From NCBI GenBank assembly GCA_019683695.1, contig JADGHX010000022.1:1-41330 (forward strand): 41,330 nucleotides of DNA. Direction: 5' to 3'. Each line of letters begins with the position of its first letter. Within the stretch, counting starts at the first letter, position 1. Origin of the DNA: Steroidobacteraceae bacterium. GTDB lineage: Bacteria; Pseudomonadota; Gammaproteobacteria; Steroidobacterales; Steroidobacteraceae. The translations under genes were made by a program, and so were the position numbers. Below are positions 4,480 through 25,515 of this stretch, piece by piece. The notes below the pieces were generated by a model, which was not told the DNA's origin, searched no databases, and worked only from the letters and a program-made list of their open reading frames with translations.

Positions 4480-6240
4480 CTAGGGAGTGGATCGCGGCGG
4501 CGTGTAGGTCAGGGCACGACTCAGGTCCCCGCGTCTGACGCATGCATCGTCCGCCGCGCCCGTCACGAGCAGCCACACATCACCGCTCGAGGTGCCAGCC
4601 GGCTGGCGTTGAGCATGCTCGAAACAGGGACTGACAGCGGATTCCGGAATGAGCAGCGTGCGTCCCGGCGCCGCGTTGAGCCACGCGGAAGCGTCGTAGG
4701 CTTCCTGCGAGCCTTCACGCCAGCGTGCATGGCCGAAGTTGACGACGGGTCTGTCGAGATAGAGCAGAAACTGCTCCTTGTAAGCCATCAAACCCAGATC
4801 CGTTCCCGGCGGAACCTGCGCGAGCATCTCGCGAGTGAACGTGCTCGCGGAGCGCTCGCCATCGATTCGCGGAGCGATACCGTAGGACCAGACCACCGCG
4901 AGCGTTGCGAACACCGTTGGCCACGCCAGCACCGGGCGTTTCCAGGCGCACACCAGCCATGCGAGCAAACCGAGTGCGGCGAAGATGCTCACGGGCGCAA
5001 GTGAATCGACTCCCGCTTCGTTGAGCGTGTTTCGCAGCCGCTGGTCTCCGACCACCGTGTCCATGACGAGCACGGCGAGCGCGCCCAGCACCAGCACTGC
5101 ACCGAGCGCGAGACTCACGCGCTGCACGCCCTTCCTCTGGAACAGCGTCGGCAGAAAAGGCGCAGCGGCGAGTGCGGTGATGGGCAATGCCGGAAAGATG
5201 TAGACGCCCCTCTTCCCGGCGCTCAACGAAAAGAACAACAAGGTGAGCAGCACCCAGGCGAGCGGCAACCCCACTCGCGCATCCCGCTCGCGGAATGCGC
5301 CGATCCACCGTGGCACCAGCCAGAACAGCAGCACGCTCAACGGTAGCCACAGTGGCGGAATCACTTCCGTGAGAAAGTAGTACCAGGGCTTCACGTGATG
5401 CCACGCCGAGGCGTATCGCTCTACGGTTTGCTGAAAGAGGATTTCGTCGCGGTAGGCGACGAGATTCGGATCGTTCCGCGTGGCCACGGCGACGAGCATC
5501 GGCATGAGCCAGATGGCGACGCCGAGCAGGAAGGCCGGCACAACGAGCGCCCACCGCGCGCCGCCCTCGATGCGCGCCAGGCCTGCGAACCCGCGCGCGC
5601 GCATGAGCGCGTACGGGATGAACACGAGCAAAGGGAGAAACCCCACGCCCTTTGTCACGACGCCCACGCCCGCCGCGAGGCCGCCCACGAAGTACCAGCC
5701 CCAAGCGGGGCCGAGCAGCAGGTGTCGCAGAAGCCCGTACATGGAGAGCGTCGTGAGCCCACACAGCACGGGGTCGATCTGCGCGCCGCGCATCGTCAGG
5801 CCGAACTGCACGCAGAAGGCCAGCATGAGTGCGCCCGCCAGTCCGGCGATGCGCCCGAACAGGCGCCGCCCGAGGTCGTACACCAACGCCACGACCGTGC
5901 ACGCCGCAACGAACGAAGGCACCAGAAACGATGCCCTGATCGAGCCTGTGAGCGCGTAGCCCAGCGCCAGCAGCCAGAAGAAGACCGGTGGCTTGTCTGC
6001 GTAGAGGTCCCCGCCAATGCGCGGGAACAGCCAGTCGCCGGTGAGCACCATGTCTCGTGCGATGAGCACGAACCGCGGCTCATCCGCAGGCCATGGCATG
6101 CGCGTGCCGAGGCCCGTGCCGACCACGAGCAGCACGGCGAGCCCGAGCCACAGGAGATCCTGAAGCTGCGCACGCTCGACGACACGCCCGGCGGGCGCGA
6201 CGCCGTTGGCAGCAGGGATCACGGGCGGCGCCTCAGGCAT
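4480..6240 (-). CDS. ArnT-like polytopic glycosyltransferase (GT83/GT39, lipid-linked sugar to lipid A or glycan)
   Basis: A 586-residue inner membrane protein with about 11-13 membrane segments in the first 440 residues and a soluble periplasmic C-terminal part. The first periplasmic loop carries the acidic DEPRF motif, followed by YADKPPVFFWL, typical of ArnT/PMT-type enzymes that move a sugar from a polyprenyl-phosphate donor. It overlaps the upstream LAB_N gene by 8 bases and ends the four-gene operon. No aminoarabinose genes (arnA, arnB, arnD) are present, so the sugar is more likely a plain hexose made on the lipid by the neighbouring GT2 enzyme. That substrate assignment is inference. 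Confidence 0.88.
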   Translation of the reverse strand: MPEAPPVIPAANGVAPAGRVVERAQLQDLLWLGLAVLLVVGTGLGTRMPWPADEPRFVLIARDMVLTGDWLFPRIGGDLYADKPPVFFWLLALGYALTGSIRASFLVPSFVAACTVVALVYDLGRRLFGRIAGLAGALMLAFCVQFGLTMRGAQIDPVLCGLTTLSMYGLLRHLLLGPAWGWYFVGGLAAGVGVVTKGVGFLPLLVFIPYALMRARGFAGLARIEGGARWALVVPAFLLGVAIWLMPMLVAVATRNDPNLVAYRDEILFQQTVERYASAWHHVKPWYYFLTEVIPPLWLPLSVLLFWLVPRWIGAFRERDARVGLPLAWVLLTLLFFSLSAGKRGVYIFPALPITALAAAPFLPTLFQRKGVQRVSLALGAVLVLGALAVLVMDTVVGDQRLRNTLNEAGVDSLAPVSIFAALGLLAWLVCAWKRPVLAWPTVFATLAVVWSYGIAPRIDGERSASTFTREMLAQVPPGTDLGLMAYKEQFLLYLDRPVVNFGHARWREGSQEAYDASAWLNAAPGRTLLIPESAVSPCFEHAQRQPAGTSSGDVWLLVTGAADDACVRRGDLSRALTYTPPRSTP

Positions 6241-6541
6241 TCCGGGCCATGCCGCCGGACTTCACATCCATGACCCAGTTGTACACCGCGACTCCCATGG
6301 GGAAGAGGTTCGAAAGCACGCCGACCGAGTCGTTCTTGCCCCAGATGAAATACGAAAGCAGCAGCGCGCTGCCGAGCATGCTCATGGTCCAGAACAGACG
6401 CGGGATCACGGGCCGCCCATGCGCGCGCGTCGCCAGCACCTGCACGACCCAGCGCCCCGCAAAAAGGAACACACCGAGATAGCCGACGATCTTCCAGGGC
6501 GTGACGACGACGCCGAACACTTCCCCGATCACCTCATTCAT
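6233..6541 (-). CDS. LAB_N domain membrane protein (lipid A biosynthesis N-terminal domain)
   Basis: A small inner membrane protein of 102 residues with three hydrophobic segments. The pattern GRWVVQ near residue 29, IPRLFWTMSMLGS near 46-58 and YFIWGKND near 64-71 matches the LAB_N domain, which is often found between a GT2 and an ArnT-like gene. Its role in such clusters is not firmly known; a flippase-like or scaffold role for the lipid-linked sugar has been suggested by analogy with small EamA/ArnE-type proteins. Its start lies 5 bases after the GT2 stop and its end overlaps the next gene. Confidence 0.85.
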   Translation of the reverse strand: MNEVIGEVFGVVVTPWKIVGYLGVFLFAGRWVVQVLATRAHGRPVIPRLFWTMSMLGSALLLSYFIWGKNDSVGVLSNLFPMGVAVYNWVMDVKSGGMARNA

Positions 6542-6546
6542 CTGCC

Positions 6547-7269
6547 TTATTCCTCACGCACGGCCAGGCCGGGCTTGTAGCGTCGCCGGAGCCACATGAC
6601 GCCGCCGATATCGACGATGCCGACCCACAATCGGTCCAGCATGCCGTACTTCGACGTGCCACGCGCCCTGGGCCGGTGATTCACCGGCACGGAAATGACT
6701 CGCCCGCCGGCGCGCTGGAACAGCGCCGGCAGGAACCGATGCATGTGATCGAACTTCGGCAGCTCGAGATAGCTGGCGCGATGCATGAGCTTGATGCCGC
6801 AGCCCGTGTCGGGTGTGCCGTCTCCCAGCAGGCACGAGCGCACCGCATTCGCGATGCGGGACTGCAGGCGGCGGAAGCTGGTGTCCTTGCGGGTGACGCG
6901 ATGGCCCTGGATCAGCACCACATCCGCGTTCGCCGGATCGAGCCGCGCGGCCATGAGCTTCGGCAGGTCCGCCGGGTCGTTCTGCCCGTCACCATCCAGC
7001 GTGCCCACCCACTCCGCGCGGGCGTGCTTCACGCCGGTGGTGACGGCAGCGCTTTGCCCGCTTCGGAAGGAATGCCGCAGCAATCGCACCTGCGGCACTT
7101 TCTCGCGGGCGCGCAGCACCGCGGCCGCGGTGTCATCCGTGCTGCCGTCATCCACGAACAGGATCTCGAAGGCGCGCCCCTTCAGCGCGATGGCGATTTC
7201 CTCCGCGAGAGGCCCGACGTTCTCGGCCTCGTTGCACACGGGAATGACAATGGAGATTTCTGGATTCAT
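6547..7269 (-). CDS. family 2 glycosyltransferase (polyprenyl-phosphate sugar synthase type)
   Basis: A 240-residue GT-A fold enzyme of the DPM1/ArnC group: EISIVIPVCNEAENV at the N-terminus, FVDDGSTDDT near residues 38-47 and the metal-binding TLDGDGQNDP near 89-98. The C-terminal RPRARGTSKYG is the typical motif of polyprenyl-phosphate sugar synthases. ArnC-type enzymes end with two membrane helices; this one has only one weak amphipathic segment, so it is the short form. It probably charges undecaprenyl phosphate with a sugar that the ArnT-like enzyme then transfers. The start overlaps the upstream acyltransferase stop by 4 bases (ATGA), indicating translational coupling. Confidence 0.9.
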   Translation of the reverse strand: MNPEISIVIPVCNEAENVGPLAEEIAIALKGRAFEILFVDDGSTDDTAAAVLRAREKVPQVRLLRHSFRSGQSAAVTTGVKHARAEWVGTLDGDGQNDPADLPKLMAARLDPANADVVLIQGHRVTRKDTSFRRLQSRIANAVRSCLLGDGTPDTGCGIKLMHRASYLELPKFDHMHRFLPALFQRAGGRVISVPVNHRPRARGTSKYGMLDRLWVGIVDIGGVMWLRRRYKPGLAVREE

Positions 7270-8021
7270 GCCGAACGCCTGCCGAGTGCCGAGCGCGCCA
7301 CGCCGTACAGCCGCTTCAGTTCCGCGGTGAGCTCATTCTGCAGCGCCTCGATGGCACCGGAATCCGTCACGCGCGGCACGTATCGCGGCGGACCGACGGC
7401 AATGGCAATTCTGGAAAACGGCACGGGGATGACGAACTTGTCCCACTTGATGAGCCACGCCCGGGAGGCCGCATACGCGATCGGCAGAATGGGACGGCCC
7501 GACATCTGGGCCAGCAGGATCGCACCCGGCTTGAACTGGAAGCGAGGCCCGCGCGGCCCATCCGGCGTGATGACGGGCGACACGCCGTGCTTGACGAGCG
7601 CTTCGTAATAATCCTTGAGCGCCCGCGCGCCGGTGGCAGTGGACGACCCGCGGATGACATGCCCCCCGAAGCGCCGGACCATCATCGCCCCGAGCTCGCC
7701 ATCGACGGAGGGGCTGATGAGCCAGCCCACCTGCAGCCCGCGCGAGCGCTGATCGACGAGGTAACGGGCCCCGAAGAGCTGGTGCTGGTGCCAATAGCAG
7801 GGGATGAGTGAGGGGTTCCGGGCGAGCGCCGCTTCGAGATGCTCATCCCCCTCGATGCGCACGATGCGGCACGTGAGCCACCAGAAACGGATGATGCCCA
7901 CCCCCAGAGGCGCCGCGACGGCGTACAGCATCCGCCGCCAGACCGTCATGCGCCGCCCGGAGCGGGTGATTCGCCGGTAGATGGAGTTGCGCAGTCCGCC
8001 GCCGGGGCCGGATTCGATCAT
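7266..8021 (-). CDS. DUF374-type lysophospholipid/lipid A acyltransferase
   Basis: A membrane-associated acyltransferase of about 251 residues. The region CYWHQHQLFGARYL carries the conserved histidine of this family; ISPSVDGE, RGSSTATG and the signature TPDGPRGPRFQFKPG follow in DUF374 order. A single N-terminal hydrophobic segment (YAVAAPLGVGIIRFWW) fits membrane anchoring. The open frame runs to 8261, but that overlaps the divergent P450 gene. ATG 8021 is preferred, with ATG 7949 as alternative; neither has a clear Shine-Dalgarno site. It is the first gene of the envelope operon. The acyl acceptor cannot be read from sequence. Confidence 0.85.
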   Translation of the reverse strand: MIESGPGGGLRNSIYRRITRSGRRMTVWRRMLYAVAAPLGVGIIRFWWLTCRIVRIEGDEHLEAALARNPSLIPCYWHQHQLFGARYLVDQRSRGLQVGWLISPSVDGELGAMMVRRFGGHVIRGSSTATGARALKDYYEALVKHGVSPVITPDGPRGPRFQFKPGAILLAQMSGRPILPIAYAASRAWLIKWDKFVIPVPFSRIAIAVGPPRYVPRVTDSGAIEALQNELTAELKRLYGVARSALGRRSA

Positions 8022-8190
8022 GGTGAGCCAGAGTGCCTGTCCGATGACTGCTCGCCTGCTGCGGCCGTGAACATTCCCCGGACAGGCTCCGGTAACGCGC
8101 GCACCGCCTGCGCGAGGCCGCGCAGTTTCCGTGATCGGACGCGGCGAAACAAGGCGTTGGCGCGCCCGGGGTCGCGCGCAGGGACTCTTG

Positions 8191-8196
8191 TAAGAT
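8191..8196 (+). promoter_or_regulatory. possible -10 element for the P450 / FAAL pair
   Basis: TAAGAT, preceded by CTTG, lies 31 bases before the P450 start in the divergent region. No good -35 hexamer is found at normal spacing, so this is only a candidate. Confidence 0.25.
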
Positions 8197-8227
8197 ACGC
8201 GCCCATTCCCGGACTCAGCTGACGCAC

Positions 8228-9538
8228 ATGACCGCTCCCGAGAAAGCCGCCCGCCACCCACCCGAGCCCGAGCTGCAGTTCGACATCGGCTCCACGGAGG
8301 ATTCCCTGGAGCGCATGCAGGAGCTGTTTGCCCGGTTCGGCGACATCTATCGTGTGTACGCCCCCGGCCGCAAATCCTACACGTACGTCATCAACCACCC
8401 GGACGACGTGAAGCGCGTGCTGGTGTCGAACCACCGCAACTACACCAAGGGCGTGGGGCTGGATCGGGTGAAGATCCTGCTCGGCAACGGCATCATGACC
8501 AGCGAGGGCGAGTTCTGGAAGCGCCAGCGCTACATGATGCAGCCGATGTTCCATCGGCGCGTCATCACGCAGTTCGCGGGCACGATCGACGAAGAGAACG
8601 AGCGCCTCATCGCCCGCTGGGAGGCGCAGGCCGCACGCGGCGAGAAGGTGAACGTCACGGACGACATGAGCGAGCTCACCCTGCAGATCGTGCTGCGCTC
8701 CATCTTCGGCCCCGATCTGGACCGCCTGGCGCAGCAGACGGGCGGCAATCCGTTCGACGTGGTGACGAAGGAGCCGGCGCGTAACCTCCAGTTCGCCTAC
8801 AAGTTCCGCCAGCTCGGCCGGGTGATCGCGGATCTGATCAAGCGCCGGCGGGAGAACGGCGAGGAGCATCCGGATTTCCTCGGCATGCTCATGAACGCGC
8901 GCGACAAGGAAACCGGCGACGGCATGAGCGAGCGCGAGCTGATCGACGAGGTGATGACACTCGTCGTGGCCGGCCACGAGACCACCGCCAGCGCGCTCAA
9001 CTGGACGTGGTACCTGCTGTCGCAACATCCCGACGTGGACGCGAAGCTGCACGCCGAGCTCGCCGCCACGCCCGAGCAGCGGGCGCCGAGCCTCACGCAG
9101 ATGGAAGCGCTCAGCTACACGAGCCAGGTGGTGAACGAGTCCCTGCGCCTGTATCCGCCCGGCTGGCTGCTCTCCCGCCGCACCATCGGGCCGGACGTGC
9201 TGTGCGGCTACGAGATTCCGGCGGGCACGAGCGTGATGCTGAGCCCTTACCTGCTCCACCGGCATCCGCGCTACTGGAAGGACCCCGATGCGTTCCGGCC
9301 GGAGCGCTTCGCACCCGAGCATGAAGCCGAACGGCCCCGCTTCGCGTACATCCCCTTCGCCGCGGGGCCGCGGCACTGTATCGGCGAAACGCTCGCCCTT
9401 TACGAAATGCTGATGCATCTGTACAAGGTCGCCCGTCGCTATCGGCTCACCTTCGTGGCCGACCGCCCCGTCGAGCTTGAAGCGCAGATCAACCTGCGTA
9501 CGCGGCATCCCCTGTACATGAGGCTGGAACGGCGCTGA
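8228..9538 (+). CDS. cytochrome P450
   Basis: A soluble bacterial P450 of 436 residues. The I-helix oxygen-activation motif AGHETT is near residue 247, the K-helix ExxR is ESLR near 302, and the heme-binding loop FAAGPRHCIGE near 377-387 has the axial cysteine at about 384. There is no N-terminal membrane anchor and no fused reductase; no ferredoxin gene is nearby. The overall look (long-chain hydroxylase-like, with GPRHCIGExLAxYEM after the heme loop) suggests a fatty acyl substrate. Its stop overlaps the next start (TGATG, one base), so P450 and acyl-AMP ligase are almost certainly made together. Oxidation of a carrier-bound acyl chain is inference from that coupling. Confidence 0.95.
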   Translation: MTAPEKAARHPPEPELQFDIGSTEDSLERMQELFARFGDIYRVYAPGRKSYTYVINHPDDVKRVLVSNHRNYTKGVGLDRVKILLGNGIMTSEGEFWKRQRYMMQPMFHRRVITQFAGTIDEENERLIARWEAQAARGEKVNVTDDMSELTLQIVLRSIFGPDLDRLAQQTGGNPFDVVTKEPARNLQFAYKFRQLGRVIADLIKRRRENGEEHPDFLGMLMNARDKETGDGMSERELIDEVMTLVVAGHETTASALNWTWYLLSQHPDVDAKLHAELAATPEQRAPSLTQMEALSYTSQVVNESLRLYPPGWLLSRRTIGPDVLCGYEIPAGTSVMLSPYLLHRHPRYWKDPDAFRPERFAPEHEAERPRFAYIPFAAGPRHCIGETLALYEMLMHLYKVARRYRLTFVADRPVELEAQINLRTRHPLYMRLERR

Positions 9539-11502
9539 TGACCCGAGCTGTCACACTCACCGAGCTGATCGAAACCAACCGCACCGCGAACCGCAGCATC
9601 ACCTATCTCGAGGGCGAGAACGAGACACGCGCCGTCTCGTTCGCCGAGCTGCACGAGCGCGCGCTCGGCATTCTCTATCACCTGCAGAAGCTCGGCGCCC
9701 GGCGGGGCGACAAGCTGATCCTGTTCCTGGGGAACAACGAGCAGTTTATCGACGCGTTCTGGGGCGCCGTGCTGGGCGGGATCATCCCCGTGCCCGTGGC
9801 GCTCGGCATCAGCGATGAGCACCGCCACAAGCTGCTGCGCATTGCGCGCAAGCTGGGCAAGCCCTTCATCTACACCGACCGGCGCTCGCTCGATCGCATC
9901 GGTGCGTTTGCGGCCCAGGTCGGAGCGGAAGACGTGTTCGAAGGGCTGCGCTCGCGCGCGTTCCTCGTGGATACGCTGGACGACATCTCGCGCGCGGGGC
10001 AGGTGCATCGTGCACAGCCGGGGGACGTGGCGTTCATCCAGTTCTCATCCGGCTCCACCAGCGAGCCGAAGGGCGTGGTGCTCACGCACGCGAACATCCT
10101 GGCGAACTCGCGCGGCTCGAGCGAAGTGGCGCGATTCACGCCGGATGACGTGAGCCTCTCGTGGATGCCGCTGACGCACGACATGGGGCTCATCGGCTTC
10201 CACATCTTCATGTTCGCGAACCGCATTCACGCGCATCTCATGCCGACGGAGCTGTTCATCCGCCGGCCGCTGCTGTGGCTCACGTTCGCCACGCGCGTGC
10301 GCGCGACCATCCTGTGCTCGCCGAACTTCGGGTACAAGCATTACCTGAAGGTGCTGGGGGACCGGCCCATCGAGGGGCTGGACCTCTCCTCCGTGCGGCT
10401 CATCTTCAATGGCGCGGAACCGATCTCGGTGGATCTGGTGGACGAGTTCCTGCGGCGGCTGGAGCCCGCGAAGCTTGCGCGCAACGCCATGTATCCGGTG
10501 TACGGCCTCGCGGAAGCCTCGCTGGCGGTGAGCTTCCCGCCGGTGGGGCGCGAGTATCGGTCCACGAGCTTCAGGCGGCACGAGCTCGGCGTCGGAAACG
10601 TGGCTCGCGTCGTGGCCCGGGATGACAGGGACGCGGTCGAGCTCATGTCCGTGGGGCGCCCGATTCCCTACTGCGATGTGCGTATCGCGGGGGACGATGA
10701 CGCGCCGCTGCCCGATGGGCAGGTGGGCAACATCTACATCCGCGGCGAGAACGTCACGCAGGGCTACTTCGAGAATCCCGAAGCGAATGCCGCTTCACTC
10801 ACCGCCGATGGGTGGGTGCGTACCGGGGATCTCGGCGTGATCCACGAGGGCGAGCTGTACATCACCGGGCGCGCGAAAGAGATCATCTTCGTCAACGGGC
10901 AGAACTACTACCCGCACGATCTGGAGAACATCGCGCAGCGCGCCCAGGGCCTGGAGCTGGGCAAGGTGGTGGCGGCCGGCGCCAAGCCGCGCGGCGCGCA
11001 GACGGAGCAGCTCGTGGTCTTCGTGCTGCATCGTGGGGAAATGAAGGACTTTCTGCCCACCGCAAACGAGGTGGCACGGCTCATCAACGAGAGCACCGGC
11101 GTGGAAGTCGCCGAGGTGGTTCCCGTCAAGCGCATTCCGAAGACGACGAGCGGCAAGATCCAGCGCCATCTGCTCGAGCAGAGCTACGTCGATGGCGAGT
11201 TCGATGCGGAGCTCGCCGAGCTGCGCGCCCTGCGCGAGGCGCAGCGCGGCGCGGATGCCACTTCCCGCTCGGTGATCGAGGATCAGCTCAAGACCATCTG
11301 CGACGCGGCCCTCGAGGGCAAGAGCGTGGGCATCCACGACAACCTGTTCGAGGTCGGCGCCAGCTCGCTGAAGCTCATCGAGATCCACGAGAACATCGAC
11401 CGGAAGTACCCGGGCATGGTGGACCTGACGGAGCTGTTCGACTTTCCGACCATCGCCGAGCTGGCGCAGCATCTGGAAGGGAAGCTCGCGGCTCGCGGGT
11501 AG
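9538..11502 (+). CDS. fatty acyl-AMP ligase fused to a C-terminal acyl carrier domain (FAAL-ACP)
   Basis: A 654-residue two-domain protein. Residues about 1-570 form an adenylation enzyme: P-loop FSSGSTSEPKGV near 169, SWMPLTHDMGLIGF near 204, PVYGLAEASLAVS near 320, and the C-terminal hinge GRAKEIIFVNGQNYYPHD near 444, which resembles FAALs (GRxKDxIIxxGxNxYPxD) more than acyl-CoA synthetases. Residues about 580-650 are a carrier domain with VGASSLKLIEI; the serine near 610 would take phosphopantetheine. It should activate a fatty acid and load it onto its own carrier. Known FAAL-carrier units feed polyketide or peptide synthases or dedicated tailoring enzymes; here only the upstream P450 is adjacent. 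The stop touches the convergent pilY1 stop with no bases between. Confidence 0.92.
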   Translation: MTRAVTLTELIETNRTANRSITYLEGENETRAVSFAELHERALGILYHLQKLGARRGDKLILFLGNNEQFIDAFWGAVLGGIIPVPVALGISDEHRHKLLRIARKLGKPFIYTDRRSLDRIGAFAAQVGAEDVFEGLRSRAFLVDTLDDISRAGQVHRAQPGDVAFIQFSSGSTSEPKGVVLTHANILANSRGSSEVARFTPDDVSLSWMPLTHDMGLIGFHIFMFANRIHAHLMPTELFIRRPLLWLTFATRVRATILCSPNFGYKHYLKVLGDRPIEGLDLSSVRLIFNGAEPISVDLVDEFLRRLEPAKLARNAMYPVYGLAEASLAVSFPPVGREYRSTSFRRHELGVGNVARVVARDDRDAVELMSVGRPIPYCDVRIAGDDDAPLPDGQVGNIYIRGENVTQGYFENPEANAASLTADGWVRTGDLGVIHEGELYITGRAKEIIFVNGQNYYPHDLENIAQRAQGLELGKVVAAGAKPRGAQTEQLVVFVLHRGEMKDFLPTANEVARLINESTGVEVAEVVPVKRIPKTTSGKIQRHLLEQSYVDGEFDAELAELRALREAQRGADATSRSVIEDQLKTICDAALEGKSVGIHDNLFEVGASSLKLIEIHENIDRKYPGMVDLTELFDFPTIAELAQHLEGKLAARG

Positions 11503-13140
11503 TCACTCCACGGTGGCGTGGTGCCAGTAGGTTCGCTGCAGCGGGCTGAAGGGCACGCAGGTTTTGAGCACACGCGTACCGACGATGCATTGAACGGCTT
11601 CGTTGGGTGAAGGCGGCTGCGGCGCGCCCGGGTTATCCGGTGGCGCGTCCGTGGGTGGGCGGACGGTGCCGCCCGCGCTGGGGGTCGCGATCTCGATGCT
11701 CACGGCGGCTGGCGGGCCCGCGTGCTGCATTTCGAGTGAACGGTCGGATGGGGTGATCTCGCCGTCGCTGTCCAGGTCCACGGCCGCCGCGCCGCTGTCC
11801 ACTCGCACCGCGTACACACGACTGGAGCCCGTCTGTTCGCACGCGCCGTCGTCTGCCGGCGCGGACTCCGGGCTGCGTTCGGGCTGGTAGGTTGTGAACA
11901 GAACGACCTTGTTCACCGTAATGGACTCGGAGAGCACTTGTTCGCCGAGCGCGAGCACATCCGGCGGCGCCAGATCCATGCGCCAGCCCTTCGCATCGCG
12001 CGGAACACGCGCATTCACGTCTGCGGTGATGTCAATGAGGTCCGTCGCGAGGATGGTGTCAAGGCCGTCGTACGCGGGCTGTGTCAGTGCCGTGAACGCA
12101 TTCGAGTCCCGAATCGAGTAGAAGCGGTTCGGGACGAGCGGCGGGGCCGTGCCGTCCGCGTCACCCGAGCCGAGGGCAACGTTGTAGTACGGCGCACCCG
12201 CGCGAGGCACGATGAGCGCCACATCCGGCCTGTTGAAGAAGCGCGCGCTGCCATTCACGGGCAAACCCGGGCTCGCCGGCGCGCTGAGGTCTGCCAGCAC
12301 GCCGCCCGTCACGAGCTCTGTGCGCGCTCTGCCGTTCCACACGTCGAAGCGAAACACCTGTCCGGCGAGATCGACCGCGTAGAAGCGATCCGCGTAGTCA
12401 TCTCCATCCACGTCCAGCACAGCAACGCCCGCCGGCACGGGATGGATCATCTTTTCGAGCTGCAGGTCCGGCGTCTCATCCGGCGAAACGCCGCCCGCCG
12501 ACCACAGACGCTGCCCCGTGGCCGCATCGAGCATGAAGATGCGGTTGCCGGCGCTCACGGAAGTGGCGTTCGCGTATCCGCCGCCGATGATGAGCACGAA
12601 GTGCTCGCCATTCTGCGCAGCGCCGGAGAGGCGCACGCGTGCGATTGCGGGAGGCGACCACGCGTCCGCAAGCCCCTTCAGCGAGTCCGCGCCGCGTTTC
12701 CAGAGCACGCGCGACCGCGAGGGGTCCGAGATGTCCAGCGCGTAGTAGAAGGGCCCTGCCCTCCGCAGGCCGAAGTACAGCCACACACGATCGCCGTCGC
12801 CCACGTCCACCGCACCGTCGCCTTCGGCATCGAAGCGCAGCACGCGCGGCGAAGAAATCAGGCCCGTGAGGCCGCGCTCACGCGCGGCAATGGCTTCCGG
12901 TGCGGTGAAGGTCCAGAGTGTTGCACCCGTTTCCGAATCCGTTGCGCGTACTGTGCCGTCTGCGGAGGCAGTCAGCGTGATCGCGAGGGTCTCGACCCCT
13001 CTGTACGTCATGGTGATCGGTTTGTTCTCGATCGCAGGCGCGGCGCACTCCTGCGCTCGCGCGGACGCGGAGCCGAGTGCCGCTGCCAGGGCACACGCGA
13101 AGAAGACGATGAATGTAACGGGAGACTGCATGGTCGCCAT
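11503..13140 (-). CDS. pilY1: short PilY1-like type IV pilus protein (C-terminal beta-propeller only)
   Basis: Secreted pilus-associated protein of about 545 residues. MATMQSPVTFIVFFACALAA begins a clear signal peptide with likely cleavage after ASARA. The mature part matches the quinoprotein-like beta-propeller of PilY1: ADGTVRATDSETGATLWTF, FYYALDISDPSRSRVLWKRG, FVLIIGGGYAN, IFMLDAATGQRLW, and a calcium-loop motif DVDGDDYADRFY. PilY1 proteins are usually over 1000 residues with an N-terminal von Willebrand A region, which is missing here; the propeller starts soon after the signal peptide. ATG 13140 was chosen because the longer frame runs into pilX and lacks a signal peptide; ATG 13131 is possible. 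Last gene of the minor pilin operon. Confidence 0.82.
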   Translation of the reverse strand: MATMQSPVTFIVFFACALAAALGSASARAQECAAPAIENKPITMTYRGVETLAITLTASADGTVRATDSETGATLWTFTAPEAIAARERGLTGLISSPRVLRFDAEGDGAVDVGDGDRVWLYFGLRRAGPFYYALDISDPSRSRVLWKRGADSLKGLADAWSPPAIARVRLSGAAQNGEHFVLIIGGGYANATSVSAGNRIFMLDAATGQRLWSAGGVSPDETPDLQLEKMIHPVPAGVAVLDVDGDDYADRFYAVDLAGQVFRFDVWNGRARTELVTGGVLADLSAPASPGLPVNGSARFFNRPDVALIVPRAGAPYYNVALGSGDADGTAPPLVPNRFYSIRDSNAFTALTQPAYDGLDTILATDLIDITADVNARVPRDAKGWRMDLAPPDVLALGEQVLSESITVNKVVLFTTYQPERSPESAPADDGACEQTGSSRVYAVRVDSGAAAVDLDSDGEITPSDRSLEMQHAGPPAAVSIEIATPSAGGTVRPPTDAPPDNPGAPQPPSPNEAVQCIVGTRVLKTCVPFSPLQRTYWHHATVE

Positions 13141-13201
13141 GAATGAATTCAGTGTTCGGTAACGTCGATTGACGGTGCACGGCTTCCGCGACTGTCCCGG
13201 A

Positions 13202-13729
13202 TCAGGGCAGGGGCACATCACCGAGCCCGGCGGCGCGACGAGTAAACGTTCGTTCGCCGCTGCCGACGGGCCGAAGGATCATCACGCCCTGGCGTTGTTC
13301 GTCGAGCGCATTGCGCCCGGCCTCTCCGCGGCTCTCGATCTCGAAGTGACGGGCGGCGAAGCGTTGGGCACTGAAGTTGGGCAACGCGGTTTCCTCGCCC
13401 GCGTATCGCGTGATCGTGATGTAACTTGCGCCCGCCACAGCGCCACTGTGCGTTGCCTCGTTCTCCGGCTCCGAGCTGCCCGACCCCAAACGGGCCAGTG
13501 CAGCGAGCGCGACCTCGATGCCCGATGACGCCGCTTCCGCCGCTTGCCGGCGAAACTGCTCGTTGCCCGCCATGGCCAGCTCGCCGGTGGACATGGTGAC
13601 CCCTGCAGTCGCGAGGATCGTGATGATGAGCAGGAGCAGCAGAGAAATGACGAGTGCGGCGCCCCGCTGCGCGCGAGACTGCGTATGTGCGCCCGAGTGC
13701 TGCTCTTCCGTTCGCATGAGCCGAGTCAT
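13202..13729 (-). CDS. pilX: minor pilin assembly protein PilX
   Basis: A 175-residue type IV pilus minor pilin. QRGAALVISLLLLLIITILA (from about residue 21) is the PilX N-terminal signature: a basic leader ending in glycine, then a long hydrophobic helix, without the glutamate at +5. It is followed by AGNEQFRRQAAEAASSGIE, a conserved feature of the family. It sits between pilW and pilY1, as in other gammaproteobacterial operons. The protein joins the priming complex at the pilus tip in the inner membrane and periplasm. Confidence 0.88.
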   Translation of the reverse strand: MTRLMRTEEQHSGAHTQSRAQRGAALVISLLLLLIITILATAGVTMSTGELAMAGNEQFRRQAAEAASSGIEVALAALARLGSGSSEPENEATHSGAVAGASYITITRYAGEETALPNFSAQRFAARHFEIESRGEAGRNALDEQRQGVMILRPVGSGERTFTRRAAGLGDVPLP

Positions 13730-13740
13730 GACCCCTCCAC

Positions 13741-14811
13741 TCAGAACGTGCGCGCATTGCGCACGGCGATCGTCCGCGAGATGAGTACGCGCCGGTAATT
13801 GCGTTCAGCGCCGGTGGGCGTGAACTCCACGTTCGCATACCGATACGTCTGCCGATCCGTGAACTGCGCGTCGGGCTCTTCCGCACGCACGCGCAGCCAG
13901 ATGCGGACGGCCATCACCTGAAGGCGCGGAAGATCCGGATGATCCGGATTCACATACCGCATCGCGTCGCCCTGCCCTTGCGTTACCGCGAACTGGATCT
14001 GCAGGTCCTCGACTCCGTGCATCACCTCCTCGTCCGCAAACGTGGCCTGCGTGCCCGAGCGCGTGAGGGATTTCACGCGCAGCGCCGGCACACCCGGCTC
14101 CCCCACCGAGTCCTGCGCGATGTAGTACGTGCGCACGAGAAGATCGTGGATGCGATGGTTGGCATCCACCGGCCCCGGCGCAGTGCCATCCGCGAACAGC
14201 CGGTGCGACGCTCCGCCGCCGAACCGCGATGCGTAAATCTGAATGCGATCCGGTTCCGCGAATGTGGTGCGCGTGGAAACGCGCCGGAGCGTGAGTGTGT
14301 CTGCACCGACCCGCGCGCGGTTCTGATAGGCGCGGCACACCGCGCCTGGGTTGCGTCCCGTGGCAAACACGCCGTCTGCGCCTTGCACGGGCATCGAGAG
14401 ATCCACGGCGAAGTTCACTCCGCACGCGTGTGCGTTCGGAGGCAAGCCAGCCATCGGCGCCGGAAGCGCACCACCCGCTCGAACAGGAAATTGTCTGAGC
14501 TCGTCCAGCGTCGCGAGGCTCACCTGCGGCTGCGCGCCCCGCACCAGACGGATGCCGTCCGGCACGTTCGTGAAGCCCAGGTAGCCGGCCATTTCGATAT
14601 CCGGCTCGAGCACTGAGAGCGCATAGCGACCCTGCTCCTGCAACCGCGCGATTCTCTCGTTCGTGCGGTACACGTTGCGCGCATGTGCGTGCATGGCCAG
14701 CGCTGCCGCGATGAGCACGGTGCTGATCGCGAGCGCAATCATCAGTTCAACCAGAGTGAAGGCGGCGCAACGCTCGAGGAAACCGCGCACTCGTCTGCTG
14801 TGGTCTTCCAT
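13741..14811 (-). CDS. pilW: minor pilin PilW
   Basis: A 356-residue prepilin-like protein. The prepilin peptidase site is CAAFTLVELMIAL near residues 15-27, with glutamate at +5 and a long hydrophobic helix. The residue before the cleavage point is alanine rather than the usual glycine, which the peptidase can tolerate but which is worth noting. The region after the helix, RIARLQEQGRYALSVLEPDI, followed by MAGYLGF, is the conserved PilW segment. Large C-terminal region of beta character. Spacing is 11 bases to pilX and 12 bases from pilV. Confidence 0.92.
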   Translation of the reverse strand: MEDHSRRVRGFLERCAAFTLVELMIALAISTVLIAAALAMHAHARNVYRTNERIARLQEQGRYALSVLEPDIEMAGYLGFTNVPDGIRLVRGAQPQVSLATLDELRQFPVRAGGALPAPMAGLPPNAHACGVNFAVDLSMPVQGADGVFATGRNPGAVCRAYQNRARVGADTLTLRRVSTRTTFAEPDRIQIYASRFGGGASHRLFADGTAPGPVDANHRIHDLLVRTYYIAQDSVGEPGVPALRVKSLTRSGTQATFADEEVMHGVEDLQIQFAVTQGQGDAMRYVNPDHPDLPRLQVMAVRIWLRVRAEEPDAQFTDRQTYRYANVEFTPTGAERNYRRVLISRTIAVRNARTF

Positions 14812-14823
14812 GACCCCGATACC

Positions 14824-15354
14824 TCACTGTGATGTAGCAGGCGCCATGAGCAGCACATCCGCGACATACGTGGACGCTGCCGAGTCGCCACGCTGGACCC
14901 ACGGCACGCTCACGCGATACCGCGCGGGATCGCCCGCGAGGGCGGGTGGAACATAGGCGACATCCGCCGCGCAAGGCTCGCTGCTTGCGAGCGGCAACGA
15001 GCGCCTCACCAAGGCGAGCCAGCGCGCGAGATCGTCCTCGGCGAGCTCAGCGGCCGTGCAGTTCGAGCCCAAGGGACTCGCCGCAGACGGCGCGCAGTTC
15101 CGTTCTGACGGGCCGCCTGGATAGCGAGCACAGTGGTACGCCTCGCCAGCCGCAGGATTTGCACGAATTCGGTCCGCGATGTCGCTCACGAGCGTGGCGA
15201 CTTGCGTGTGGAGCAGTGCGTTGTGCCCGATGCGCAGCGCCTGCACCGTCAATGTGGCCACGCCGAGCATCCCCACGCTGACAATCACCAGCGCGACCAG
15301 CACTTCGACCAGCGTTGCACCACGCGCGCGGCGCATGACCATCACGCCCCGCAT
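14824..15354 (-). CDS. pilV: minor pilin PilV
   Basis: A type IV prepilin of about 176 residues. The leader ends in RARG and the mature protein starts ATLVEVLVALVIVSVGMLG, the standard pilin helix with glutamate at +5. ATG 15354 is chosen because AGGAGGAGG lies 4 bases upstream, an excellent ribosome binding site. ATG 15342, which overlaps the fimT stop as TGATG, is the alternative. The longest frame (15438) lies inside fimT and has no support. Cysteines in the C-terminal half (YHCARY, NCAPS, NCTAAEL, EPCAAD) could form disulfides in the periplasm. Confidence 0.9.
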   Translation of the reverse strand: MRGVMVMRRARGATLVEVLVALVIVSVGMLGVATLTVQALRIGHNALLHTQVATLVSDIADRIRANPAAGEAYHCARYPGGPSERNCAPSAASPLGSNCTAAELAEDDLARWLALVRRSLPLASSEPCAADVAYVPPALAGDPARYRVSVPWVQRGDSAASTYVADVLLMAPATSQ

Positions 15355-15971
15355 GCGGCCTCCTCCTGAGCCACACGCGGCCGGCCGGTTTGGCTCACCA
15401 CCACCGCTCGCCCACGCGGCTGCGCGCTGATTTCGCACAAGTCGAACGTGCTGGTCGTGCCGGCGCGGCTCACCGGCCAGAACGTGACAGCAGGCCGGCT
15501 GCCGTGCACGGTGAGCTGGGTTGGGAGGCGGAACTGGTGCAGGAGGTGCTGACCCTGCTCATCTGGCTCTGGCGCAAGATCCATGACCCCGGGCGCCCGA
15601 CGAACCACCAGCCAGCCGCGTGCAGCGGACGCCGGCGATGAAAGGCACGTGCGATCGTCCGCTGTGAGGCAAAGCGTGACGGGCGCACCGTTGAGAATGG
15701 CGGAGCTGCGGGCGAAATGGAGCGCCCACAAAAGCTGATGAGTGGCTGTGCTCAGATCCGCCGCGCGGCGAAAGGCTGCAAAGCTCGGCAGCGCCATCGC
15801 GGCAAGCAAGGCCGCAATCGCCAGCCCGAAGAGCAGCTCGGCGAGCGTGAACCCTCGAGCGCGCCGCCCGCTGCCCGCGCCCGTCAACGGCGCGTGAGCG
15901 GCCAAGCCCGCGTACCGAAATGCGCCCCATCGCGCCGGCCTGCGCGGCGCGCACGCTGAAACCCTGCCCAT
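15342..15971 (-). CDS. fimT: GspH/FimT family pseudopilin
   Basis: A 209-residue prepilin with RARG then FTLAELLFGLAIAALLAAM, glutamate at +5. ATG 15971 has a strong GAGGAGG Shine-Dalgarno 7 bases upstream, but it implies a 40-residue leader, long for a type IV prepilin. The only nearer in-frame starts are non-ATG, such as TTG 15887 (12-residue leader), with no ribosome site. The mature part shows the GspH pattern (HQLLWALHFARSSAILNGAPVT). First gene of the minor-pilin operon; transcription starts in the 183-base divergent gap shared with the Fur-type gene. Confidence 0.85.
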   Translation of the reverse strand: MGRVSACAPRRPARWGAFRYAGLAAHAPLTGAGSGRRARGFTLAELLFGLAIAALLAAMALPSFAAFRRAADLSTATHQLLWALHFARSSAILNGAPVTLCLTADDRTCLSSPASAARGWLVVRRAPGVMDLAPEPDEQGQHLLHQFRLPTQLTVHGSRPAVTFWPVSRAGTTSTFDLCEISAQPRGRAVVVSQTGRPRVAQEEAACGA

Positions 15972-17757: not shown

Positions 17758-17920
17758 CCGGCGATGATGCCGGCCATGGTGCATTCCGGTGCGCCCCCGC
17801 CCCGTTGCGCCTTGAGCGGCTCTCCGGACAAGATGACACCAGCACGCGCGCCACTCAGGGCGGGTGCGCGACCTGCGAAAAACAAGACCCTGCGAACAAG
17901 AACAACAAAAGGGAGCTCAA

Positions 17921-18823
17921 ATGTCCTCGATCACGAATGGCCCGAGCGCAGTCCACGCGCACCTTTCGGCACGTGCCCGCGAGCTCGCTGCGGCGGATCC
18001 CGCCGATCTGGCCCGCATTCGCACGATCATCGATGCGCTGGCAATCGATTCGAAACCGCTCGCCGGCGTGAAGTTCGTGCAGAGCGCCCATGCGGCAATC
18101 CGCGGCGTGTGGGCCGTTCCCGAGAACGCTGATCCAGACCGGCGCATCGTGTACTGCCACGGATGCAGCTTCATGGCGGGCAGTCTCGATTTGTATTCGG
18201 GTGTCGTGAGCCGGCTTGCCGTGCTCGCCCGGGCATGTGTGTTCTTCGTCGAGTATCGGCTGGCGCCCGAACACAGATTCCCCTGCGCTGCGGACGATTG
18301 TCTGAGGGCGTTCCATTGGGCGCGCACAAACGGCCCGGATGGCGAAGGCCGGGCGGCCGCATGCTTCCTGGTGGGCGATTCCTCTGGCGCAGCGCTCACA
18401 ATTGCCATAGCGCTCGATGCCGCGCGAGCGGGCGCGAGTCCGGATGGCATCGTGACGCTTTCGCCGTTTGTCGACCTGAGCGTATCCGGCGATGCGAACG
18501 ACGGGCGCGATCCCCTCACGACCCGCGAGATGGCGATGGCGTGCGCCTCCATCTACGCGCCCGGGATGGATCCACGCGATCCGCGACTGTCCCCGCTATT
18601 TGCCGACCTCTCTGCGCTTGCACCGATTCAGATCCACGGAGCCACTCAGGATCCGCTGCTGGACGACGCGTTGCGACTTGCAAAGCGAGCGCGCAAGGCA
18701 GGTGCGCGCGTTGAACTGCACGTGTGGAGTGACGTTCCGCACGCGTGGTACCTGTTTCCGACCGAGCTCCCGGAGGCTTCCCTCGGCCTCGAACTCGCGG
18801 CGACATTCCTGCGGCGGTTGTGA
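17921..18823 (+). CDS. alpha/beta hydrolase, hormone-sensitive-lipase-like esterase
   Basis: A cytoplasmic esterase of about 300 residues. The nucleophile motif is GDSSG (serine near 154), the acid is in TQDPLLDD (aspartate near 244) and the histidine is in VPHAWYLF (near 274), so the triad is complete. The oxyanion-hole motif, normally HGGG, reads HGCS (H80) in CHGCSFMAGS, an uncommon substitution. YRLAPEHRFP is the standard HSL segment. ATG 17921 has GGGAG 6 bases upstream, better than the earlier start at 17864. The LuxR gene follows with no gap. Substrate unknown; short-chain esters or lactones are typical of the family. Confidence 0.9.
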   Translation: MSSITNGPSAVHAHLSARARELAAADPADLARIRTIIDALAIDSKPLAGVKFVQSAHAAIRGVWAVPENADPDRRIVYCHGCSFMAGSLDLYSGVVSRLAVLARACVFFVEYRLAPEHRFPCAADDCLRAFHWARTNGPDGEGRAAACFLVGDSSGAALTIAIALDAARAGASPDGIVTLSPFVDLSVSGDANDGRDPLTTREMAMACASIYAPGMDPRDPRLSPLFADLSALAPIQIHGATQDPLLDDALRLAKRARKAGARVELHVWSDVPHAWYLFPTELPEASLGLELAATFLRRL

Positions 18824-24597: not shown

Positions 24598-25515
24598 TTG
24601 CACGGGTTGCAGCAGAGCGTCCGGGCGACGCAGCCTGAAGCGGGCCAACGTCGTTCCGCATGGTGGGTGCGCGCATTGTCGGCGCTGCCCCTGCCGGTGC
24701 TTTACGTGTTCGCCGCGTTCCTGGGCTGGCTCGCGTACCGCGTGTTCCCGTACCGGCAGCACGTCGTCCGCGAGAACCTCTCGAAGGCCTTTCCGGAGTT
24801 CGACGAGGCGCGCCTTCAGGACACCATGCGGCGCTACTACCGTGGCTTTGCGCAGGTGCTGGTCGAGCTGATCAAGGCGGCGACCGTCTCGCCGGAGGAG
24901 CTCCGGCGGCGCGTGAAGATCCTCAATCTCGATGCCGCTCGCACCCTGCTCGACAGTGGCAAGCCCGTACTGCTCGTGGCCGCTCACCAGTGCAACTGGG
25001 AGTGGATGCTGCTGGGCTTGTCCCTGCAGCTCGGGTATCGCGTGGATGCTGCGTACAAGCCGCTCGTGAACCCGTGGGCCGAGCGCGAAATGCTCACGAT
25101 CCGCACGCGCTTCGGCAGCCGGCTCATCGCGGCCAAGGGATTACTGGCGGACATCCTCAAGCACGGCAAGGACGTGCGCGCCATCTGCATGGTGGCGGAT
25201 CAGGAGCCCACCACGAGCGAGCACAAGCACTGGACGCGCTTCCTCAACCGCGATACCGCGTTCTACATGGGCGCCGAAGAGATCGCCCGCGTCACGAAAT
25301 ATCCGGTGTTCTTCGTGGGCATGCGCCGCACGGCGCGCGGCTTTTACGAGATGGAGCTGAAGCCGCTTTCCCTCGGTGGCGAGAAGCTCGCGCCCGGCGA
25401 GCTGACGGAACGTTACGCGCGCCTGGTGGAGGAGCAGATCCGCGCCGCACCGCCGGACTGGCCGTGGTCACACAAGCGGTGGCGACTGAAGAAATCGCTG
25501 TACGGCAACCGCTGA
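24598..25515 (+). CDS. LpxL/HtrB-type lipid A acyltransferase
   Basis: An inner-membrane-associated acyltransferase of about 305 residues. One N-terminal hydrophobic segment (LPLPVLYVFAAFLGWLAYRV) is followed by the family pattern VRENLSKAFPE. The catalytic H-x4-E is AAHQCNWEW near residue 128. Later GLLADILKHGKDVRAICMVADQEP matches the LpxL consensus, and the C-terminus has PPDWPWSHKRWR. It probably adds a secondary acyl chain to lipid A from acyl-ACP. The start is a TTG with GAGG 9 bases upstream; no better in-frame ATG exists. It follows the RND permease by 21 bases and may be co-transcribed with it. Confidence 0.9.
   Translation: MHGLQQSVRATQPEAGQRRSAWWVRALSALPLPVLYVFAAFLGWLAYRVFPYRQHVVRENLSKAFPEFDEARLQDTMRRYYRGFAQVLVELIKAATVSPEELRRRVKILNLDAARTLLDSGKPVLLVAAHQCNWEWMLLGLSLQLGYRVDAAYKPLVNPWAEREMLTIRTRFGSRLIAAKGLLADILKHGKDVRAICMVADQEPTTSEHKHWTRFLNRDTAFYMGAEEIARVTKYPVFFVGMRRTARGFYEMELKPLSLGGEKLAPGELTERYARLVEEQIRAAPPDWPWSHKRWRLKKSLYGNR

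Follow-up and report, generated by a model that had tools for sequence, protein, structure and literature searches.

A P450, a FAAL-ACP protein and a DUF374/LpxJ-type acyltransferase as a candidate acyl-supply unit for the cell envelope of Gammaproteobacteria

The DNA analysed here, hereafter the window, comprises the first 41,330 nucleotides of contig JADGHX010000022.1 (assembly GCA_019683695.1) of a Steroidobacteraceae bacterium. It carries a gene for a cytochrome P450, a gene directly after it for a fatty acyl-AMP ligase (FAAL) with a C-terminal acyl carrier protein (ACP) domain, and, divergent from both, a gene of the DUF374 family of acyltransferases. We lean, by no great measure, towards the view that they form a dedicated unit that supplies and modifies acyl chains for an acyltransferase of the envelope. 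The parts were already known, and no description of a P450, a FAAL-ACP and a lipid-A-type acyltransferase in combination was found among the papers that literature searches listed, as judged by titles and the beginnings of abstracts. To our knowledge, the late acyltransferases of lipid A are supplied by the acyl-ACP pool that serves the cell in general.

The three proteins

The P450 (436 amino acids; 8228..9538, + strand) matches the Pfam family p450 with 268.8 bits (cut-off 22.8) and falls in a clan near CYP102, CYP120, CYP184 and CYP97. The FAAL-ACP protein (654 amino acids; 9538..11502, + strand) matches AMP-binding with 190.2 bits (cut-off 29.9) and PP-binding with 38.1 bits (cut-off 20.8). 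A preliminary description of this DNA had named the pair and its one-base overlap, and both open reading frames (ORFs), their domains and the junction are as it said: the final A of the P450 stop codon TGA is the A of the FAAL start codon in the sequence TGATG. All three P450 motifs are intact, FAAGPRHCIG at residue 377, AGHETT at 248 and ESLR at 304, which we take to be the haem cysteine motif, the acid-alcohol pair of helix I and the ExxR motif, respectively. By Pfam, the adenylation domain of the FAAL spans residues 23-411 (9604..10770, + strand), and by Pfam and alignment the carrier domain spans residues 592-646 (11311..11475, + strand), with Ser610 (codon TCG, 11365-11367) invariant across an alignment of 22 rows.

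Compared with four AMP-binding paralogues from the same genome, which were taken as coenzyme A ligases without classification, the FAAL-ACP has an insertion of 24-28 residues that is common to the six family rows compared, at what we assume to be the position where FAALs bear their FAAL-specific insertion. A fifth row, L002, had been taken in the wrong frame and is left out of the comparison. The best NCBIfam model is the fatty acyl-AMP ligase PRK09192, at 368.8 bits and below its curated cut-off of 600, and the top sequence match in the PDB is McyG, followed by FAAL-type entries.

The predicted P450 model has a predicted local distance difference test score (pLDDT) of 86.8. First among the 50 structural neighbours listed are CYP120A1, CYP102A5/BM3, CYP97C1 and CYP184A1, the last of which has also been solved with oleic acid, and BM3 habitually acts on fatty acids. 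Neighbours that bind fatty acids allow a fatty chain as the substrate of the modelled enzyme, without showing that it is one. A closer kinship with CYP107/BioI was considered and provisionally dropped, as BioI is named by no entry among the 50 structural neighbours listed or the 60 listed out of 275 sequence matches.

The DUF374 gene (7266..8021, - strand; PF04028, 69.5 bits, cut-off 26.8) encodes 251 amino acids from the ATG at 8021, within an ORF that stays open to a GTG at 8261, and is the sole DUF374 gene found in its genome. DUF374 is the LpxJ family, and in the passages available of the study that characterised it, six residues are given whose loss abolished the activity of Rickettsia typhi LpxJ (PMC6148475). 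The window protein bears all six, W77, H78, D107, D154, W193 and D194, corresponding to R. typhi W60, H61, D86, D132, W172 and D173 by motif and spacing, without alignment to an LpxJ sequence. Among 97 distinct rows of the family, W60, H61, D132 and W172 are invariant, D86 is present in 90 and D173 in 95. The protein is without an HX4D/E motif, with no D or E five residues past H78 or H80. The acyltransferase that had been pointed out as a neighbour of the pair is therefore of a lipid-A type, but of the DUF374/LpxJ type and not a canonical LpxL or LpxM. Its predicted model (pLDDT 87.7) aligns with PlsC (Z 12.7), PatA (12.2), a plant GPAT and LpxM (10.9), within a Z range of 10.8-12.7. Also scoring Z 10.9 against it is 7zkq_T, which belongs to an assembly intermediate of complex I.

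A single branch with a support of 100/100 divides the DUF374 tree. On one side lie 44 FAAL-linked rows from many families together with 9 unlinked ones, and on the other lie 6 rows of a second, distant type of DUF374 from the window's family. That the FAAL-linked proteins form one strict clade was rejected: the labels change 5 times over the tree (13.5 on average after shuffling), six genomes without FAAL form a clade nested among the linked rows, and L171, L176 and L180 stand there as well. These nested rows probably represent losses or contig ends. In L171, GT2, DUF374 and two LpxL-like acyltransferase genes follow each other in one run without a FAAL (4916-8403).

Conservation of the linkage

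Several samples of genomes were searched. The relatives sample comprised 148 genomes, including that of the window, with thresholds of E up to 1e-100 for the FAAL and up to 1e-70 for the P450, and FAAL was found in 69 of them, P450 in 60 and DUF374 in 91. The P450 lies at most 200 bases from the FAAL in 52 of the 60 genomes that have it, the window's own included, and chance is for that reason no explanation of their adjacency. Six of the other eight are contig ends, and in two (G023 and G087) the genes stand on separate contigs that have flanking sequence. Of the 69 FAAL genomes, 58 have DUF374 no more than 4 kb from the FAAL. In a sample of the order outside the window's family, DUF374 is present in all 8 FAAL-positive genomes versus 1 of 49 FAAL-negative ones (p 5e-9, uncorrected for kinship), and the lone exception has, at a contig end, DUF374 and P450 together with the beginning of a FAAL-ACP.

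The class-wide search for the P450 drew 369 genomes and gave 31 matches in 28 of them. Beyond the two matches of the window's family, 18 scored above 490 bits and 11 below 370 bits; the loci of 17 and 9 of these were examined, and the three left out were second copies in two cases and a broken contig in one. FAAL-ACP adjoins all 17 of the high-scoring P450s, accompanied by DUF374 in 16 cases and by an LpxL-like gene in one, and none of the 9 low-scoring ones; two of the latter loci have only weak matches to FAAL, on the opposite strand. A wider scan of named genomes, limited to the best 80 of 568 relatives, added 80 loci, among them Woeseiaceae, Panacagrimonas perspica and one record named Endozoicomonas.

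For the pooled set, 98 of 125 dereplicated loci were retained, those with less than 4 kb of upstream or 2 kb of downstream flank being dropped (thresholds of our own choice). The P450 stands beside the FAAL-ACP in 77 of the 98. These include 67 loci with DUF374 and 22 with an LpxL-like gene, and one or the other lies within 4 kb in 74, which is the kind of conserved third partner that the preliminary description had suggested looking for. Two of the remaining three have a serine palmitoyltransferase (SPT) gene, and in L085 the LpxL-like gene lies at a greater distance. Over the whole set, 29 loci have an LpxL-like gene at most 4 kb from the FAAL-ACP. DUF374 can be placed upstream and divergent, downstream and convergent, or downstream and co-directional, and because all three arrangements occur the linkage is not just one inherited gene order.

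The other 21 loci have a FAAL-ACP without an adjacent P450, and among them DUF374 is found in 13, an LpxL-like gene in 7 and either in 15. Since so many loci do without the P450 while most of them keep DUF374, and since it lies on another contig in two genomes, the P450 is optional and the core consists of the FAAL-ACP and the acyltransferase. The proposal that P450 and FAAL-ACP make up a functional unit is supported by their conserved adjacency and by two natural fusions, but the pair is not a fixed one. The fusions are single ORFs for P450-FAAL-ACP in two genomes of one genus (L050:8340-11681 and L051:8190-11516), and all three Pfam domains were confirmed in the one tested. At 78 of 102 junctions between P450 and FAAL-ACP the gap is 20 bases or less (approximate starts, near-duplicates included).

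The unit had been described as having no synthase, and this holds both in the window and outside it. A Pfam scan of 36 window proteins (all 35 called genes and one ORF) gave no family of ketosynthases, peptide synthetases, thioesterases or ferredoxins; there is one general alpha/beta hydrolase (17864-18823), and 13 Fer2 matches lie elsewhere in the genome. A set of 138 loci, near-duplicates included and with flanks mostly of 8-10 kb per side, contains one ORF longer than 1300 amino acids, which groups with the pilus-type gene that the window has at 11503, and no synthase in these flanks. Further adenylation-type domains are found in only 4 of the 138, two of them being the second FAAL of the loci with SPT. 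Membership in a polyketide synthase (PKS) or nonribosomal peptide synthetase (NRPS) cluster was consequently rejected, and the possibility that the pair always sits inside such a cluster finds no support in these flanks.

Surroundings and variant loci

Upstream of the P450 and divergent from it, four genes are tightly ordered. After DUF374, and overlapping it, comes a gene for a GT2 protein like the polyprenyl-phosphate sugar transferases ArnC and RgtE (6547..7269, - strand; PF00535, 98.7 bits; nearest NCBIfam model of the ArnC type, 94 bits versus a cut-off of 529), then one for a small LAB_N protein with the N-terminal domain of lipid A biosynthesis (6233..6541, - strand; PF07578, 60.4 bits, cut-off 26.7) and one for an ArnT/PMT-type glycosyltransferase (4480..6240, - strand; PF13231, 68.3 bits; nearest NCBIfam model ArnT, 98 bits versus a cut-off of 567). 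The acyltransferase and the lipid A operon had together been suggested as a possible user of the acyl group. The acyltransferase is indeed the most conserved partner, but relatives of ArnT recur in only 14 of 107 loci and those of GT2 in 13, and ArnT, GT2 and LAB_N were rejected as an obligate part. A GGDEF-EAL gene is present in 50 of the 107 loci, just 7 of them with a FAAL distant from the window's, and was taken as family synteny and not as a partner. An LpxL-like acyltransferase gene of the window (24598..25515, + strand; PF03279, 138.2 bits) lies 13 kb from the pair. On the other side, a run of minor-pilin-type genes (PilX, PilW and GspH; 11503-15971) is convergent with the FAAL, the stop codons of its first gene and of the FAAL abutting. 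This large first gene may be PilY1-like, by position only.

A phosphopantetheinyl transferase (PPTase) gene is found near 35 of the 98 loci, 29 with and 6 without P450. It often stands between DUF374 and the pair and is of the Sfp type by Pfam, and the three tested pass the ACPS cut-off. The window's genome has its own, larger PPTase on another contig. Two DUF374 genes stand on the far side of the FAAL-ACP in L164 (in tandem, 9947-11433), L223 and L224. A FabH-like KAS III gene closely follows the FAAL-ACP in 18 loci of the Woeseiaceae type (median distance 6 bases; for example L058:11566-12534).

In five loci a radical S-adenosylmethionine (SAM)/SPASM gene takes the place of the P450 directly before a close relative of the FAAL-ACP (L063:7008-8381, L088, L092:6628-7998, L096 and L121:5028-6323), and none of the five has a DUF374 or LpxL-like gene within 4 kb. 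It is possible that it acts as a second, oxygen-independent modifier of the chain.

In Panacagrimonas perspica (L151) and on plasmid pDCB2 of Diaphorobacter sp. JS3051 (L187), genes for PPTase, P450, FAAL-ACP, another FAAL and SPT follow one another, and the acceptor would accordingly not always be the same. On pDCB2, a conjugative IncP plasmid, the order is PPTase, P450, FAAL-ACP, second FAAL, ACP and an SPT-like gene (5928-13437), adjoining permeases of the LptF/LptG type and a CDP-alcohol transferase: a mobile cluster of the sphingolipid type.

A proposed acyl supply line and its alternatives

The sequences themselves show the gene content, its conserved linkage, the fusions, the protein families and the essential residues; for the substrate, the order of the steps and the acceptor we infer the following. 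The FAAL would adenylate a free fatty acid and load it onto its own C-terminal carrier, whose 4'-phosphopantetheine would come from an Sfp-type transferase, adjoining in many relatives and encoded elsewhere in the window's genome. With redox partners from other loci, the P450 would oxidise the chain. Hydroxylation is the most likely reaction, with the carrier-bound chain a slightly likelier substrate than the free acid. The divergent DUF374, as a late acyltransferase of the LpxJ type, would then hand the chain over to a glycolipid of the envelope, with lipid A as the likeliest acceptor. In related units an LpxL-like acyltransferase is swapped in, or an SPT gene stands alongside.

This scheme has counterparts among known systems. 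The AasR-AcpR-SPT system of sphingolipid-making Proteobacteria, as far as described in the passages available, has a private synthetase and carrier that feed one lipid enzyme (PMC9386255). The present unit resembles it in that a dedicated acyl-ACP synthetase would load a dedicated carrier for one lipid enzyme, with the chain withdrawn from the general pool, and differs in that one protein is both synthetase and carrier, an oxidase comes in addition, and an acyltransferase of the DUF374 or LpxL type is the likely user. The rhizobial acpXL-lpxXL cluster likewise has a private carrier and a dedicated acyltransferase for a special chain of lipid A, and the parts of its description seen list ketosynthases and a dehydratase, fabF1XL, fabF2XL and fabZXL (PMC7663294); here the FAAL would instead activate a ready-made fatty acid, and the scanned window proteins include no ketosynthase. 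With LpxJ (formerly DUF374) the window acyltransferase shares the Pfam family and the essential residues, whereas the passages of that paper seen describe no LpxJ that is served by an acyl-loading ligase and a carrier of its own (PMC6148475). BioI (CYP107H1) is a P450 reported to act on fatty acyl-ACPs (PMC11089781), and the product of the window P450 is probably a different one. As support for oxidation on the carrier, as in JamABC and BioI, fusion and adjacency are suggestive only.

It is quite possible, if somewhat short of probable, that the supply line is the same but begins with the P450, which would hydroxylate the free fatty acid, the FAAL then activating the hydroxy acid without any oxidation on the carrier. 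The nearest solved P450s, with BM3 and the oleic acid structure of CYP184A1 among them, are in favour of this, as are the 21 loci where the FAAL-ACP manages without an adjacent P450. The same can be said of the arginine of an APGR motif (residues 45-48), at what we presume to be the position of the carboxylate-binding arginine of BM3, which is kept in 17 of 19 rows but lost in L058 and L060. The fusions, however, fit oxidation on the carrier at least as well, and so does the fact that, in the part of the class-wide sample that was examined, this group of P450s always stood beside FAAL-ACP.

Rather unlikely, in our view, is an acceptor other than lipid A, with DUF374 acylating a glycolipid, aminolipid or glycerolipid of the envelope with the chain that the FAAL supplies. 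The predicted fold of DUF374 matches PlsC and PatA at least as well as LpxM, which would suit such an acceptor, but the six residues essential in LpxJ are retained, part of the family has DUF374 together with ArnT-like, GT2 and LAB_N genes, and an LpxL-like gene may stand in for it or beside it.

We consider it improbable that the FAAL-ACP is a free-standing loading didomain of a small lipopeptide or polyketide pathway making a secreted metabolite, with DUF374 as a bystander. Such didomains are known starters of natural products, and the window protein has the same domain order as HapA, BamA and McyG in the sections of the source seen (PMC11837247), with around 40% identity to bacillomycin-type loading modules, which are among its plasmid-record relatives at that level. 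Unlike these it is free-standing, with no synthase seen downstream. In the 138 loci the single pilus-type ORF is the only gene of megasynthase size, KAS III-type genes occur in only 15 of the 98 pooled loci, and an acyltransferase of the DUF374 or LpxL type accompanies 74 of the 77 pairs.

A sphingolipid unit that delivers its chain to SPT or to N-acylation in ceramide synthesis, in the manner of AasR-AcpR-SPT, fits the gene rows of L151 and L187, for which we retain it, but is very improbable as the general role, since SPT occurs in 2 of 98 loci, there with its own second FAAL and on the plasmid also its own ACP, and it was rejected for the window's genome (97.65% complete), where no SPT was found and the two nearest matches are BioF and Kbl, each above its own NCBIfam cut-off.

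Several observations weigh against a supply line that leads to lipid A. D86 is replaced in 7 of the 97 DUF374 rows. LpxJ function has been demonstrated in few species, and some glycolipid other than lipid A could receive the chain. In the structure comparison of the P450, CYP3A4 and CYP46A1, which are not known as fatty-acid enzymes, score almost as high as BM3, so a fatty chain is only a possible substrate. Eleven of the 69 FAAL genomes are without DUF374 within 4 kb: in seven it lies on another contig (four of these being contig breaks beside the P450), in one at 47 kb on the same contig, and in three none was found; of the three on another contig and not beside a P450, two were read and both are of the distant type. 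Within the window's own family FAAL and DUF374 do not co-occur significantly (Fisher p 0.11), DUF374 being kept without a FAAL match in 24 of 90 genomes, some of them at contig ends. Twelve of these 24 loci were read, and a kindred DUF374 stands without FAAL in 7, only the distant type is present in 4, and 1 is a contig end (G079). L151 and L187 have neither a DUF374 nor an LpxL-like gene nearby, and six further loci have a FAAL-ACP without P450, DUF374, LpxL-like or SPT partner, five of them with the radical SAM gene. Many of the Steroidobacteraceae loci are also syntenic and hence not independent, and a literature search, unspecific as it was, found no lipid A structures from these organisms.

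We nevertheless put forward, as a tentative proposal that is possible rather than probable, that many Gammaproteobacteria have a private branch of lipid A acylation that bypasses the acyl-ACP pool of fatty acid synthase. Free and perhaps salvaged acids would be activated by the FAAL, oxidised by the P450 on the carrier and installed by an acyltransferase of the LpxJ or LpxL type, in a modular arrangement where the modifier may be a P450 or a radical SAM enzyme and the user LpxJ, LpxL or a sphingolipid pathway. DUF374 enzymes would then gain a possible natural acyl donor, and this group of P450s a testable substrate. If it is true, acyl chains of the outer membrane can derive from free fatty acids and bear functions made by a P450, which would be a route to unusual lipopolysaccharide chemistry in bacteria that are known mostly from metagenome assemblies.

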